DNA of 64,000 nucleotides from contig NZ_CP065383.1 of the NCBI RefSeq assembly GCF_015775515.1, forward strand, positions 1,674,001-1,738,000, written 5' to 3'. How positions within the stretch are numbered: the stretch's first letter is position 1; each line of letters begins with the position of its first letter. Shown piece after piece: positions 21,389 through 28,407 of the stretch. The stretch comes from Atribacter laminatus (lineage in GTDB: Bacteria > Atribacterota > Atribacteria > Atribacterales > Atribacteraceae). Position numbers and translations under genes: made by a program. The notes below the pieces were generated by a model, which was not told where the DNA came from, did no database searches, and was given only the letters and a program-made list of their open reading frames with translations.

Positions 21389-21404
21389 TAATGAGGTGAA
21401 TTAT

Positions 21405-24400
21405 ATGAAGTTCCGATTCTTTTCCTGGTTGTTGGGAATATCTCTGGTTTTTTCTCTGGGAATTTTTTCTGTATACGCCCAAGAAGCGACAAGTATAGCC
21501 ATTTTTCCCTTTTCAATGAGAGATGAGGTCGATGGATATTTCGGTTATTATCTTCGAGACCTCATTAAAGATGCTTTTGATGGTATCGAACAGGTTGAAG
21601 TCATCGATAACATCATGATTGATGAAATCTTGCGGGAAGCGAAAATTCCACGAGATGTAATCCTCGTTCAATCTATGGCTCAAGTTTTAGGAAAAAGAAT
21701 CGGGGGAGATTATATACTGAGTGGAGCATATCGGATTCGTCAACTGGGAGATAAAGAACGTTTGGTTGTGAGTGTACGGCTTTTTGATTTGAGAAAAGAA
21801 GCCATGATTGATTTAAAAAGTAATGTTTTTGAAGTGAATAATCCCGATGAGTTTCGACAGCTCATTGTCCCTGAAGTCTTAAAATCGCTTAATATTGATT
21901 TTGCTGAGCCTGTTGAATCGTTTCTTTATGACCCCCAATTGATTTTTCCTCTCTATCGTGCAGTTGATAAAATGGATGAGGCTCTTCGGACGTACGGAAG
22001 TGCCCAATTTCCTGATAAACCACTCTGGAAAGAGGCTTTTGCCGAAGCGCAGGAAACCATTGATACCGTTCCGAATTACTTGGAGAGTTACTATTATCTC
22101 GCCTATATGTATCAAAAAACGGGATGGTTGGCGAAAGAAGTCGAGACCATGATGAAGTATGTTGAACTCCTTGAAGGTTCAGGAAGGGAAAAAAATTCAA
22201 TACAAAGAGCGACTCGAGCTTATTTAAGACTGGCTAATTCTTACCTTTCTCAAAAGAAATATGAGATGGCCGAGGAGAGCATTAACCAGGCTTTACAAAT
22301 AAACCCAGAAATCGCTGAAGCTTATTTTCTTTTAGGCAAAATTGCTTATGACCAAGGAAAATCTGCTCAGGCACAAGAATATTGGAATAAAGCCTACTTC
22401 TTGGATCCATCTCTTAAGGAAGCCCAATATTTTGCTGGAGAAGCTGGGAAAGCAGCAGTTTATGGGAAGGATGCCTATGAATCCTACCGAACTGGTTATA
22501 CCTATTATGCCAATGGTGATCTTAAAACGGCGGAAGGATACTTTCGGAACGCTGCTCAACTAAATCCGAATATGAAGGAAGCCCAATATTGGTTGGGAAG
22601 AACCCTTTACGATTTGGGTAAATTAGCCGACGCTGAAGTGACTTGGAGGAAGGTTATTGAAATTGATCCCTTTGACAGCCAGGCAAAACGCTTCTTAGAA
22701 AGAACGATTCAAGAAAAACAATATGGGAGGAATGCCCTGAGCCAATTCCGTCAAGGCTTTGACCTCTATCAAGAAGCGAAATACGCTGAAGCAATTCCCT
22801 GCTTTGAAAAAGCCGTTCAGGAAAGTCCTCGTTTCCCCGAAGCTCATGAATATTTAGCTCGATCTTATTATCTGTTGGGGCAAAAAGATAAATACTTAAG
22901 AGAAAGAGAAAAAAGTCTGAATCTCATTGAACAACCGACTGATAAAGCCTGGCAATATTATTTGGTTGGGTATGAGCTTTTCTCTTGGAATGAAAAAGAA
23001 AAGGCGATTGATTACTTGCAAAAAGCGGTTGAAGTGGATACCAGTTTATCGGAAGCCCATCTTTTATTGGGCGAGATATATGGGAGTATGAATCAATGGA
23101 AACAAGCTGCTTTTCATTATGGCCAAGCTAGTTCTATCCCTGAAAAGAATACTGAAGAGGATCAATCCTCGGTATTGTGGGGAGCAAGTGTCTCATATAT
23201 TCAATTGGGTGAGTGGGCCAAAGCGTATGAATACCTAAATGAACTGGTGAAGAAATACCCTTATGCCGATTTTATTGAAGAAGCAGAGTCATTACGGATT
23301 GAAGCGATGGTGAAAATGGGTCAATATCGCGATGCCCGAGTCGGTGTGCAACAATTTCAGTTGCGTTTTCCATCAGGGCGCTTTCGAGAAAGAGTGCAAT
23401 TTTATAATGCATTTAGCTTTTATCAAGAGAAACAGTGGAAAGAAGCTGCTCAAGCTTTAGAATCATTCCATAAAAATTATCCTCAGAGTCAATATCGGAA
23501 AGAAGCCTTAGAGGCTCTGGGTTATTCTTATCGAAACTTGGGACAAGAAGAAAAGGCTCGGAGTTATTTTTCTCAAATCGAAGGACAGGAAAACACCTTT
23601 TTGGTAGCTGATACCTTTTATCGAGAAAAAAAATGGCAGCAAGCTCTATCGTCCTTTTTAGAATACCTTAAGACCACTCCTCAAGGTCAGTATGTTCAGG
23701 AAGCAAGATTAAAAGTGGCATCATGTTACTTAGAAACCAACCAGGTTGAATTGGCCGAGAAATTAGTAGATGAGATAACCAGTTCGTTAGATGCTAAGTT
23801 TCAACTGGACTACCTCCGGCTTACCATAAAGTTGGCTTATAAAAAAGGGAATTGGCAGAAGGTGGTCGAAGGAGTTGATCAACTAGAAAAGCAGTCTGGG
23901 TCTCTCGATGAGGAATATTTATACCTATTAGCTTGGTCTCAGGTAAAATTAGGAAAGGAATCTGAAGCTAGACAGCTTTTGGAAATAGCCGGTTTGAATC
24001 CCGATGAGATTCTTTCCGATTCGGAAATTGAAAAAATAAGCGATATTATGGACGTTCTCCGATCAGGTGATTATCCTTCGGCGATATCACAACTGAAAGA
24101 ACTCTTGACCGAAGGTGTGAACAGTGAGAATAGTGCTGCCGTTCACTTTTTGTATGGAAAAGCTTTGTATCTCAATGGAGATTTTAATGAAGCCACCCAA
24201 TACTTAAAAGAAGCGGTTGCTATAGAAAGCAAGGACTATAGGGAAGAAGCTTGCTTTTATTTAGGTGATATCGCCTATAAGAACGAGAATTGGTTGGAGG
24301 CTGCTCAATGGTATCAAAAGTTAAACATCCAGGATAATCTTGACCTTCTCTGGCGATTGGCAACTTCACTAGATAAATCGGGGGAAAAGGATCAAGCTCT

Positions 24401-25031: not shown

Positions 25032-25084
25032 ACTGGGGATACACTTATGCTGATTCTTTCTCTACAATGCAGGAGGTTTCATTG

Positions 25085-25801
25085 ATGCAGATATTTACTG
25101 TGATTGGCAAGGGCGGATTAATCATGTATCCGATCGTGGCCTCATCGATTATTTTCTTAGCGGTGTTTATCGAGAGGTGGTATGTTTTACGACATTCAAA
25201 AGAGAGAGTAAAAAGATATTTGCGGTCATTGAGAAAAGCTATTAATCAGAGAGACTTGCGGACCGTTATCGACATTAGTCAGAAAAATCCTGGTCCAGCA
25301 TCACGGATAATCATGGCAGGTATAAAAAAATATCTAAATGGTGTTCCACGGGAAGCAAAAGAAGCAATGGAAACTGTGGCAATGCAAGAGTTTCCTTATT
25401 TTGAAAAGCGTTTAGGAGTGTTATCGACTATTGCGAGCATTGCCCCGTTGTTAGGGTTACTTGGAACGGTTACTGGAATGATTCGAACTTTTAATGTTAT
25501 AGCCTCGATTGGGGTAGGAAAACCGACGGAAATGGCTGGAGGTATTTCTGAAGCATTGATAACCACCGCTGCTGGATTGTCAATCGCTATTCCGACAGTC
25601 ATTGGTCACTATTACCTTTCCCAGATTGCCGAAAACATTATGAACGATATTGAAAAAGCCAGTTCAGAAGTTCTAGATATTATTGAGGAACTGAGAATCA
25701 ATAATGGAAACGAAGGAGTAGAATTCGAAAAAGCCAAGAACCCAGAAGGAGTTGAGGAGAATGTTCCGATTTCGACAAAAGAAACAGAGGCGCCAGCCTG
25801 A
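25085..25801 (+). CDS. exbB: Proton channel subunit ExbB/TolQ/MotA family
   Basis: The 238-residue inner-membrane protein has an N-terminal helix (GGLIMYPIVASSIIFLAVFI), a cytoplasmic loop, and two paired helices with the family motif (STIASIAPLLGLLGTVTGMI; SEALITTAAGLSIAIPTVIG). With ExbD it uses proton flow to drive a TonB-like partner. ATG 25085 follows AGGAGG by eight bases, so it is chosen over ATG 25067. It overlaps exbD by 41 bases. The C-terminal tail is acidic and longer than usual. Confidence 0.95.
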   Translation: MQIFTVIGKGGLIMYPIVASSIIFLAVFIERWYVLRHSKERVKRYLRSLRKAINQRDLRTVIDISQKNPGPASRIIMAGIKKYLNGVPREAKEAMETVAMQEFPYFEKRLGVLSTIASIAPLLGLLGTVTGMIRTFNVIASIGVGKPTEMAGGISEALITTAAGLSIAIPTVIGHYYLSQIAENIMNDIEKASSEVLDIIEELRINNGNEGVEFEKAKNPEGVEENVPISTKETEAPA

Positions 25802-26177
25802 GATTAACCTCACTCCAATGATCGATGTGGTGCTCCAATTAATAATATTTTTTATCGTAACCACCACGTTTATCAGTATTGAAAGTGGGGCCAAAGTGAA
25901 TCTTCCCTCGGCAGATTTTTCCAAAATTGAGGAAGCCAAGACCATCACCGTAACTATAACTGAAAACAATATGCTTTATGTCAATGGTGCTCTGGTTGAT
26001 GCCAAAGAGCTTCCTTCGTCGGTCGTAGTGGCTTTACGTAATGAGCCAGAGGCAACGGTTATCGTTGAGGCAGATAAGCAAGTTTTGCATGGTAAAGTTG
26101 TGTCAGTCATGGATGTTCTTAAAAAAGCCGGAGCCGAGAAAATAGCCATTGCCACTCAACCGACCAAAGAAGAGTAG
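25761..26177 (+). CDS. exbD: Biopolymer transport protein ExbD/TolR
   Basis: The 138-residue protein has a short basic cytoplasmic N-terminus, one membrane helix with the essential Asp in NLTPMIDVVLQLIIFFIVTT (D22), and a periplasmic domain ending in a TolR-like KKAGAEKIAIAT. ATG 25761 has AAGGAG nine bases upstream. It overlaps the exbB end and is followed two bases later by the TonB-like fusion gene. Confidence 0.95.
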   Translation: MFRFRQKKQRRQPEINLTPMIDVVLQLIIFFIVTTTFISIESGAKVNLPSADFSKIEEAKTITVTITENNMLYVNGALVDAKELPSSVVVALRNEPEATVIVEADKQVLHGKVVSVMDVLKKAGAEKIAIATQPTKEE

Positions 26178-26179
26178 TC

Positions 26180-27640
26180 ATGAATAAATTTTTCATTAAT
26201 GAAAAAAAGGTTTGGACTTTTTCTCTTACCTTATCAGTAATTATTAATCTGGTAATATTGGCTGCAATATCTATCTATTGGTTATCGATAAAATACGAAC
26301 CCCCTCTTCAAGACGAACCTATGGTGATTCAGGTTTTAGAAATACCGTCCTCTCGTAAGCCTGTAACAGTTGCTCCTGCTGAAGAAGCCAATATAGCTGA
26401 ATTAAATCCTTTGAAGGACATTCAAAATCAAGATGTTAACAGTGAACCTCAGATACAAAGTGAAATAGCAACTGATGTTCAGCAAAAAAAGGAACAGGTT
26501 ACCATTCCAAAACCACCTGTTGACCTCCCTGATTCAGAAATGATTTCCGAATCAGGATCACCTTCAGGAGCAAAATTGGTGAATCCAGGAGAAAATATCG
26601 ATGTGCCAGAGGATTTAAAGTGGCAGGGGGTTGAAGCTGAAAATACACTGAAAGCCCAATTCGAAAGATCTGGCCAATCAACCCGTTTAGCTCGTTTAGC
26701 AGAAGAGGGGGTAGAAAGGATAGAAAGTACAGTTGGTGAAACACTGGCTACCGGTGAATTAGCTGTGCCAACTGGTCAGGTTGACAAAAAATCTCCCTTT
26801 TCTAAACGGCCGATTTCGGTCATCATTGAAAATGCACCCGCAGCACGTCCCCAAGCAGGACTTAGTAAAGCTGATGTTGTCTATGAAATTATGGCCGAAG
26901 GTGGAATTACCCGATTCTTAGCTATTTATAACGAAGGCGTAGCGGATAATGTTGGTCCAGTTAGAAGTGCACGTCCTTATTTTGTGATGAAAGCGGCTGA
27001 ACACAATGCCATATTTGCTCATGCCGGTGGGAGTGTTGAAGCGTATGTCTATATGAAGGAAATGAACATTGATACCATCGATGAGTTTAAATTCTTTCAG
27101 GCTTTCTGGAGAAGTAAAGATCGGAAAGCTCCACATAATCTCTACACTTCTATAGCCAATCTCAGAAATCAAGCTCAGCGGTTAGGTTACAATAAACCGG
27201 TAAAAGGAGGAGGGGGATTTCAAGTCCGGACACCCCAAGAAGCTTTAGGAACCGAGGATGCTCCCCAAGTAGAAATCTTGTATGCTGGAGATTATCGAGT
27301 GAAATATACTTGGGATGCTTCTCAAAAAGTGTATCGAAGGTTTATCAATGGAAATCCCCACGTCGACTCTCTGAACGGTCAGCAAATTATAACTCCCAAT
27401 ATTATCATTCAAATTACTGAACAGAAAGTGAAAGATGAGGAAGGTCGAATAGAAATTACTTTTGTTGGGAGAGGAACTGGATGGATTTTATTAGATGGGA
27501 AAGCGGCTGCAATAAGTTGGGAAAAGAATTCTCTGGGAGAAAAAACCAACTTTTTTTATGCTGACGGAAGAGAGTTAAAAATTAATCCCGGAGCCCTTTG
27601 GATAGAAGTGGTCAGTACCCAGAATAAGGTGGCGATGTAA
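26180..27640 (+). CDS. TonB-like N-terminus fused to a DUF3048 (YerB-like) domain
   Basis: The 486-residue protein has a basic start, one membrane helix (about 12-36, SLTLSVIINLVILAAISIYW), a TonB-like strand EPMVIQVLEIP and a long Pro/Glu/Gln-rich spacer (about 45-200). The C-terminal half (about 205-480) is not the TonB C-terminal fold but matches DUF3048: SVIIENAPAARPQAGLSKAD, EIMAEGGITRFLAIYN, VGPVRSARPYFV, WILLDGKAAAISWEKNS. DUF3048 is known from YerB-type lipoproteins of Firmicutes, whose role is unclear (possible peptidoglycan link). The operon position after exbB-exbD strongly suggests it is energised by them. It overlaps lgt by one base. Confidence 0.85.
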   Translation: MNKFFINEKKVWTFSLTLSVIINLVILAAISIYWLSIKYEPPLQDEPMVIQVLEIPSSRKPVTVAPAEEANIAELNPLKDIQNQDVNSEPQIQSEIATDVQQKKEQVTIPKPPVDLPDSEMISESGSPSGAKLVNPGENIDVPEDLKWQGVEAENTLKAQFERSGQSTRLARLAEEGVERIESTVGETLATGELAVPTGQVDKKSPFSKRPISVIIENAPAARPQAGLSKADVVYEIMAEGGITRFLAIYNEGVADNVGPVRSARPYFVMKAAEHNAIFAHAGGSVEAYVYMKEMNIDTIDEFKFFQAFWRSKDRKAPHNLYTSIANLRNQAQRLGYNKPVKGGGGFQVRTPQEALGTEDAPQVEILYAGDYRVKYTWDASQKVYRRFINGNPHVDSLNGQQIITPNIIIQITEQKVKDEEGRIEITFVGRGTGWILLDGKAAAISWEKNSLGEKTNFFYADGRELKINPGALWIEVVSTQNKVAM

Positions 27641-28407
27641 TGCACAGTGTATTATTTCGAATTGGTCAATTTCCAGTTTATGCTTATGGCTTTTTTTTGG
27701 GGGTAGCTTTTTTAGTGGGCATTTATTATGCCTCGCGACGAGCTCCTGGTTATGGAGTTTCTCCCGATTCAGTTGTTGAAGTCAGTGTACTCTGTATTTT
27801 TGGAGCTATCTTTGGATCCCGTTTAGTTTTTGTTTTACTCAACTGGGATATTTATCGCGATAACCTCATTCATATCTTTTTAATCCGTGAAGGTGGTCTG
27901 ACCTTCTACGGTGGTATTTTTGGAGCAATATTTTTAGCAATCCCATATATTATACATAAAAAATATTCTTTACCGGCTTTATTTGATATTTGTACTCCGG
28001 CTATCGCTCTGGGTTATTCCATTGCGCGGATTGGTTGTTTTCTTAATGGTTGTTGTTATGGTCGGGTTTGTTCCTACACCAGCTTTCCCCTTGGAGTTCA
28101 TTTCCCTGCTTTGGAAGGGTGGAGGTATCCAACTCAACTCTATTCAGCTGGATACTCTCTCCTAATCCTCTATTTTTTACTCAAACTGGAGAAGAAAAAG
28201 GTTTTTCGCGGAGAGCTCTTTTTTGATTATCTTTGGATGTATGGGATCGCTCGTTTTTTAATCGAATATTTACGTGATGAACCCTTTTCGGTTTGGGGAG
28301 TTATGACAGCAGCTCAATTTGCCTGTTTGTTGATAATTATAATTGCTCTTATTCTGCGAGAGATATTGAGAAAGCATGCTACCCAACGATCTCAGGAACG
28401 TTCTTGA
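27640..28407 (+). CDS. lgt: Prolipoprotein diacylglyceryl transferase
   Basis: Lgt attaches diacylglycerol to the lipobox Cys of prolipoproteins at the inner membrane. The 255-residue, roughly seven-helix protein has the family motif REGGLTFYGGIFGA, the key segment SIARIGCFLNGCCYG with the catalytic-region Arg, and RFLIEYLRDEP at the end. ATG 27640 overlaps the preceding stop. Downstream it overlaps the Xer gene by 32 bases. Confidence 0.96.
   Translation: MHSVLFRIGQFPVYAYGFFLGVAFLVGIYYASRRAPGYGVSPDSVVEVSVLCIFGAIFGSRLVFVLLNWDIYRDNLIHIFLIREGGLTFYGGIFGAIFLAIPYIIHKKYSLPALFDICTPAIALGYSIARIGCFLNGCCYGRVCSYTSFPLGVHFPALEGWRYPTQLYSAGYSLLILYFLLKLEKKKVFRGELFFDYLWMYGIARFLIEYLRDEPFSVWGVMTAAQFACLLIIIIALILREILRKHATQRSQERS

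Follow-up and report, generated by a model that had tools for sequence, protein, structure and literature searches.

The window, by which the whole stretch of 64,000 nucleotides analysed is meant, derives from Atribacter laminatus, a Gram-negative bacterium with an unusual multilayer envelope (PMC7736352). It comprises a run of genes coding for a long exported TPR protein, two motor proteins of the ExbB/TolQ and ExbD/TolR types, and a protein in which a TonB-like anchor and a linker are joined to a DUF3048 domain (called here the fusion), followed downstream by genes for Lgt and a XerC/D-type recombinase, both recognised by Pfam (Table 1). The open reading frame of the fusion is the one described in the initial annotation.

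Table 1. Genes of the locus and parts of the fusion protein (positions in the window)
Feature	Positions	Strand	Remarks
Exported TPR protein, about 1211 aa	21396..25031	+	Signal peptide, N-terminal domain of ~170 aa, many TPR repeats
ExbB/TolQ-type motor protein	25067..25801	+	PF01618, 2e-32
ExbD/TolR-type motor protein	25761..26177	+	PF02472, 9.6e-31
Fusion gene: TonB-like anchor, linker, DUF3048	26180..27640	+	ATG start, 486 aa; proposed force transducer
Transmembrane helix, fusion residues 8-38	26201..26293	+	AlphaFold model
S19-x3-N23	26234..26248	+	Counterpart of Ser-x3-His in the SHLS motif of TonB/TolA
D-box (motor-box)-like segment MVIQVLE, residues 48-54, then I55-P56	26321..26341	+	
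Linker, residues 57-197	26348..26770	+	Mostly disordered, some Pro; AlphaFold model
DUF3048 N-terminal domain	26771..27190	+	PF11258, 7.8e-50; YerB fold
DUF3048 C-terminal domain	27275..27604	+	PF17479, 4.5e-28
lgt	27640..28407	+	Pfam

The fusion directly follows exbB-exbD and precedes lgt, as had been noted initially: only 2 bp separate the end of the exbD stop codon from the fusion ATG, and the fusion TAA (27638-27640) shares one base with the lgt ATG. The exbD start at 25761 is likely, and that of exbB is probably the ATG at 25085, situated behind a strong Shine-Dalgarno sequence, caggagg, and preferred to the first in-frame start at 25067, which is probably unused. The ExbD helix, LTPMIDVVLQLIIFF, bears the conserved Asp. 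Judged by their scores against NCBIfam models, the motor proteins are nearer to TolQ/TolR than to ExbB/ExbD, the ExbB protein reaching 104 bits with the TolQ model vs 68 bits with the ExbB model, both values lying below the cut-off. The TPR protein begins with an apparent signal peptide and not with a TonB-type anchor. Its N-terminal domain has no match in Pfam, and a search of the PDB gave only insignificant hits to FlgO domains (E about 1.3); by eye, this domain (21396-22019 of the window) looks TolB_N/FlgO-like.

By both profile and fold, the fusion belongs to the DUF3048/YerB family. Pfam places PF11258 (DUF3048) at residues 198-337 with 169.3 bits and PF17479 (DUF3048_C) at residues 366-475 with 98.3 bits, the cut-off being 25 in both cases; these two families and no other are found in 30/30 aligned fusion proteins, a count which, like all those over Atribacterota given below, comes from related genomes, many of them metagenome bins, that are not independent samples. 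In an AlphaFold model built on 30 relatives, high confidence is limited to the helix and the head, with the confident domain starting at about residue 210, and confidence is low at residues 44-152 and 163-202; within the linker, a helical pair is predicted at residues 152-181. A Foldseek search with this model returned a single significant match, YerB of Bacillus subtilis (2psb, 8e-27), to which the DUF3048 N-domain alone aligned with a TM score of 0.88 (6e-16). Neither a TonB C-terminal domain, as PF03544 or as a fold, nor a vWA head was found in the fusion by Pfam scans and Foldseek, and Foldseek gave no fold of the TolA C-terminal domain for the head. The structural comparison thus bears out the initial annotation, which had called the C-terminus DUF3048/YerB-like and not of the TonB fold. 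The TonB-like N-terminus that it had proposed holds as far as the one helix and the linker are concerned; the linker is only moderately rich in Pro, with about 11 Pro per 95 residues. By the criterion of its head, the fusion is not a TonB, though it would work like TonB or TolA.

The anchor helix contains a Ser followed by three hydrophobic residues and then Asn or His in 32/32 fusions, with S19 invariant and position 23 occupied by Asn in 31 of the 32 and by His in the remaining one (L055). Outside Atribacterota, where the best 47 DUF3048 loci listed served for comparison, the same pattern occurs in one of the 47 proteins, in which it overlaps the lipobox, and none of these loci has the fusion architecture; among eight short secreted DUF3048 paralogues the pattern is likewise found once. 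In E. coli TonB and TolA, the Ser-x3-His pair touches ExbB or TolQ (PMC12215075), and His20 of E. coli TonB is fully replaceable by Asn, according to a title in the reference list of PMC8928145 (Swayne and Postle 2011). The Leu and the second Ser of the SHLS motif are not conserved in the fusions, positions +11 and +15 from S19 being I30 and W34 in the window protein, neither of them a conserved column; these two residues are less conserved in TonB, too (PMC12215075).

Past the helix lies a segment resembling the D-box as defined in PMC10907165 (the region as a peptide: EPMVIQVLEIPSS). It ends in a Glu located two residues before a Pro, and both residues, E54 and P56, are invariant in the fusions. 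The core of the motif, i.e., its last five positions (hydrophobic-polar-hydrophobic-hydrophobic-polar), is present in all 32 fusions, the relaxed pattern in 27 and the strict seven-residue pattern in 2. Since the relaxed pattern is found somewhere in 14% of shuffled 30-residue stretches, weight is placed on the position and conservation of the segment, not on the pattern alone. The segment begins 28-31 residues past the Ser (median 29 over the 32 fusions), the corresponding distance being 29 in E. coli TonB and 32 in TolA by the positions given in PMC12215075. The E. coli D-box has been measured against the ExbD periplasmic domain by calorimetry (PMC10907165).

DUF3048 is encoded in 46 of the 50 Atribacterota genomes, 43 of which have an open frame of 478-538 aa; the frame is broken in G014, and two incomplete bins, G033 and G038, contain a short copy only. 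The neighbourhood was searched for in the relatives and is conserved phylum-wide, with exbD directly upstream of the fusion in 32/32 relatives from seven families and a long TPR gene 5' of exbB in all 25 relatives whose contig is long enough, so that the gene order TPR-exbB-exbD-fusion is found in 25/25 assessable cases. On the 3' side, xerC is present in 31/32 relatives and lgt in only 13/32. The lgt neighbour, not being conserved, does not count as a regular part of the system, and the tie to the lipoprotein system considered possible in the initial annotation is not supported. In an unrooted tree of the heads, the fusions cluster together with an SH-aLRT of 96, apart from the proteins of Firmicutes and others and from the short paralogues, which is consistent with a single origin. 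In families f6 and f7, a further DUF3048 protein, short (about 315 aa) and secreted, is often encoded; these paralogues (L061-L068) have a signal peptide, are devoid of the TonB-like anchor and constitute a deep tree group of their own.

Two further observations concern the surroundings of the locus in the relatives. Direct repeats of 99-100% identity were found in three family-f2 metagenome bins. Two copies of the exbB-exbD pair flank the TPR gene in L045 (2660-3807 and 7408-8555) and in L058 (1397-2469 and 6089-7161); in L039 (1-124 and 4769-4893), the repeats on either side of the TPR gene comprise the end of the pair, at a contig edge. Recombination, gene conversion or an assembly effect may each be their source. 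In G026, G028, G029, G039, G041 and G044-G049 (f6, f7), the single LCP (LytR-CpsA-Psr) gene lies on the same contig as the fusion, at a distance of ~14 kb.

In the window's genome (3.10 Mb, single contig, about 98% complete), profile searches found a single PF01618 protein and a single PF02472 protein, each encoded at the fusion locus, as well as an Omp85 protein. They gave no match to TonB_C, TonB_2, the TonB-dependent receptor barrel or the OmpA/Pal domain PF00691; the absence of TolA/TonB relatives is profile-based, and diverged members may fall below detection. With one ExbB, one ExbD and none of these other potential partners or receptors, the fusion appears, from the gene content, as the sole visible partner of the ExbBD motor. 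Ten other Atribacterota genomes encode a TonB_C protein, which shares its contig with a receptor in 10/10 cases and with another ExbB in 9/10, and all six classical TonBs inspected in the phylum have Ser-x3-His. The DUF3048 cassette and that of the classical Ton system thus appear to be separate units, each motor having its own partner.

In the DUF3048 head, fourteen residues are invariant over 85 N-domains, including those of monoderm lipoproteins, and the fusions keep them; among them are E236, E240, R245, R262, R265 and H281 (numbering of the window protein). In Firmicutes and others (L112-L158), DUF3048 is encoded in a conserved block that we take, from recognition of the sequences, to be phoH-pgpH-ybeY-dgkA-[DUF3048]-cdd-era-recO; it is of a housekeeping character and not decisive for function. 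No function is assigned to DUF3048 in the literature searched, where YerB is mentioned in passing, as a lipoprotein and in sporulation gene lists. The order of the motifs TRFLAI...GPVRSAR...HxGGS in DUF3048 prompted a comparison with LCP proteins, which did not support such a kinship: hhalign against 30 Atribacterota LCP proteins gave a probability of 0.3% over 13 columns, and two Foldseek searches gave YerB only.

The six residues named above resemble a catalytic or ligand site, and the motor could, accordingly, drive or gate a reaction of a DUF3048 enzyme, such as a mechanically activated wall enzyme, and move no load. This is improbable in our view, as no DUF3048 activity is known (YerB is listed as not assignable in PMC13068155), Foldseek found no enzyme fold for the head and the LCP kinship is unsupported. 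The enzyme-like appearance of the conserved polar residues would also fit a DUF3048 protein that is simply a tethered envelope enzyme or sensor, with ExbBD serving the TPR protein or acting alone and the operon reflecting co-regulation; DUF3048 elsewhere is indeed a lipoprotein or a membrane-anchored protein, exposed on the outer face of the inner membrane and occurring without ExbBD. A simple anchor, however, would need neither an invariant Ser-x3-Asn/His nor an invariant E-x-P segment at the TonB spacing, and the TPR protein has an apparent signal peptide at its start in place of a TonB-type anchor, which makes this explanation improbable.

The reading preferred here, with a probability of roughly 0.78, is that the fusion acts as a proton-motive-force-driven periplasmic transducer of the TonB/TolA design with DUF3048 in place of the head, because of the domain architecture, the spacing of the motifs, the phylum-wide operon, the tree pointing to one origin and the lack of any other visible partner. 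The helix would dock outside the ExbB pentamer via Ser19 and Asn23, and the ExbD dimer would take up residues 48-54 as a beta strand; powered by the proton gradient, ExbBD would then shift the helix together with the D-box-like segment. The linker may span the periplasm and carry the force to the DUF3048 head, which would engage the load, the exported and syntenic TPR protein being possibly an adaptor. The core idea of the initial annotation, a TonB-like anchor with a DUF3048 head driven by an ExbBD motor, survives the fold, profile and neighbourhood tests. It gains strength from the conserved Ser-x3-Asn/His, from a D-box-like strand spaced as in TonB and from the absence of another partner; docking, force and load are what we infer.

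As to the load, our tentative choice, at somewhat less than even odds, is a component of the cell wall or a protein associated with it, in preference to a TonB-dependent receptor or Pal, because the conserved site of the head is shared with monoderm YerB proteins. Monoderm bacteria have no outer membrane, so a wall or membrane-surface component is the more likely ligand of the head. The tie to the cell wall suggested initially is plausible on these grounds. In its narrowest form, in which DUF3048 would grip peptidoglycan or a lipid-linked wall precursor, ExbBD would pull on the wall and the passive YerBs of monoderms would bind the same ligand motorless, the idea is rather unlikely. The transducer may also be correctly recognised and its DUF3048 head grip an outer-membrane protein or lipoprotein, the whole being a stand-in for the Tol-Pal or TonB-receptor system. 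A linker long enough in the AlphaFold model for crossing the periplasm, a genome with Omp85 and without Pal or a TonB-dependent receptor, the scores of the motor proteins and a periplasmic TPR partner reminiscent of CpoB all speak for such a load; yet the invariant head residues are common to anchored proteins of monoderms, so that the ligand is probably not a part of the outer membrane, and we regard this alternative as somewhat unlikely.

If the transducer reading is correct, DUF3048 would be one more head among the few domains that ExbBD or TolQR motors drive, and a widespread domain, function-less so far, would gain its first mechanistic context, namely a ligand worth pulling on. The occurrence of the domain in monoderms points to a load that is not an outer-membrane receptor, and a motor placed beside a DUF3048 rod suggests pulling on something besides the usual nutrient transporters. 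The system also draws attention in that the fusion is the sole visible partner of the motor in a genome assembled as one contig, and in that it is kept throughout a phylum whose envelope is unusual. Profile searches for C-terminal domains (PF06519, PF03544 and PF13103, as in PMC12204202) would miss DUF3048-headed systems.

Among known systems, the Ton system shares with the fusion the Ser-x3-His/Asn helix, the D-box-like strand 28-31 residues further on, a disordered linker containing Pro and the adjacent exbB-exbD genes; it differs in that the fusion has a DUF3048 head instead of the TonB C-terminal domain, mostly Asn in place of His, and no receptor in the genome. To Tol-Pal the window's system is linked by the motor scoring nearer to TolQ/TolR, by the same anchor motif and by the exported TPR protein in the operon, whereas the OmpA/Pal domain is absent from the genome and the TolA head from the fusion, and CpoB is far smaller than the TPR protein of about 1200 aa. 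A TPR protein, TtpD2, accompanies TonB2 of Vibrio as well (PMC6957404). The YerB lipoprotein (2psb) has the head fold and the invariant residues in common with the fusion (30% identity over the model), but the DUF3048 lipoproteins and simple membrane-anchored proteins of this type are mostly about 340-390 aa long and have no nearby motor genes, Ser-x3-Asn helix or long linker. With SjdR of Anabaena (PMC8262864), a TonB-like protein is already on record that acts on septal peptidoglycan and not in nutrient uptake; no relationship to the fusion is claimed, and SjdR is not known to contain DUF3048. Nearest in kind are the vWA force transducers, which comprise an SHLS helix, a motor box, a ~100-residue linker and a head unrelated to those of TonB and TolA, their genes being preceded by a TPR gene and then the motor genes (Williams-Jones et al. 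2025, PMC12204202). The fusion has the same three-part build, with anchor, motor box and linker, and the same TPR neighbour; it differs in its DUF3048 head and in having one ExbD, not a heterologous pair. Atribacterota are absent from the hosts of vWA transducers given in PMC12204202, and DUF3048 or YerB is not mentioned there. The initial annotation had regarded the role of a force-receiving head of this kind as not described, which holds for DUF3048 but not in general, as motor-driven heads other than TonB were published in 2025 with the vWA proteins (PMC12204202). Motor transducers with a non-TonB head are thus already known, and DUF3048 as the head is the new part.
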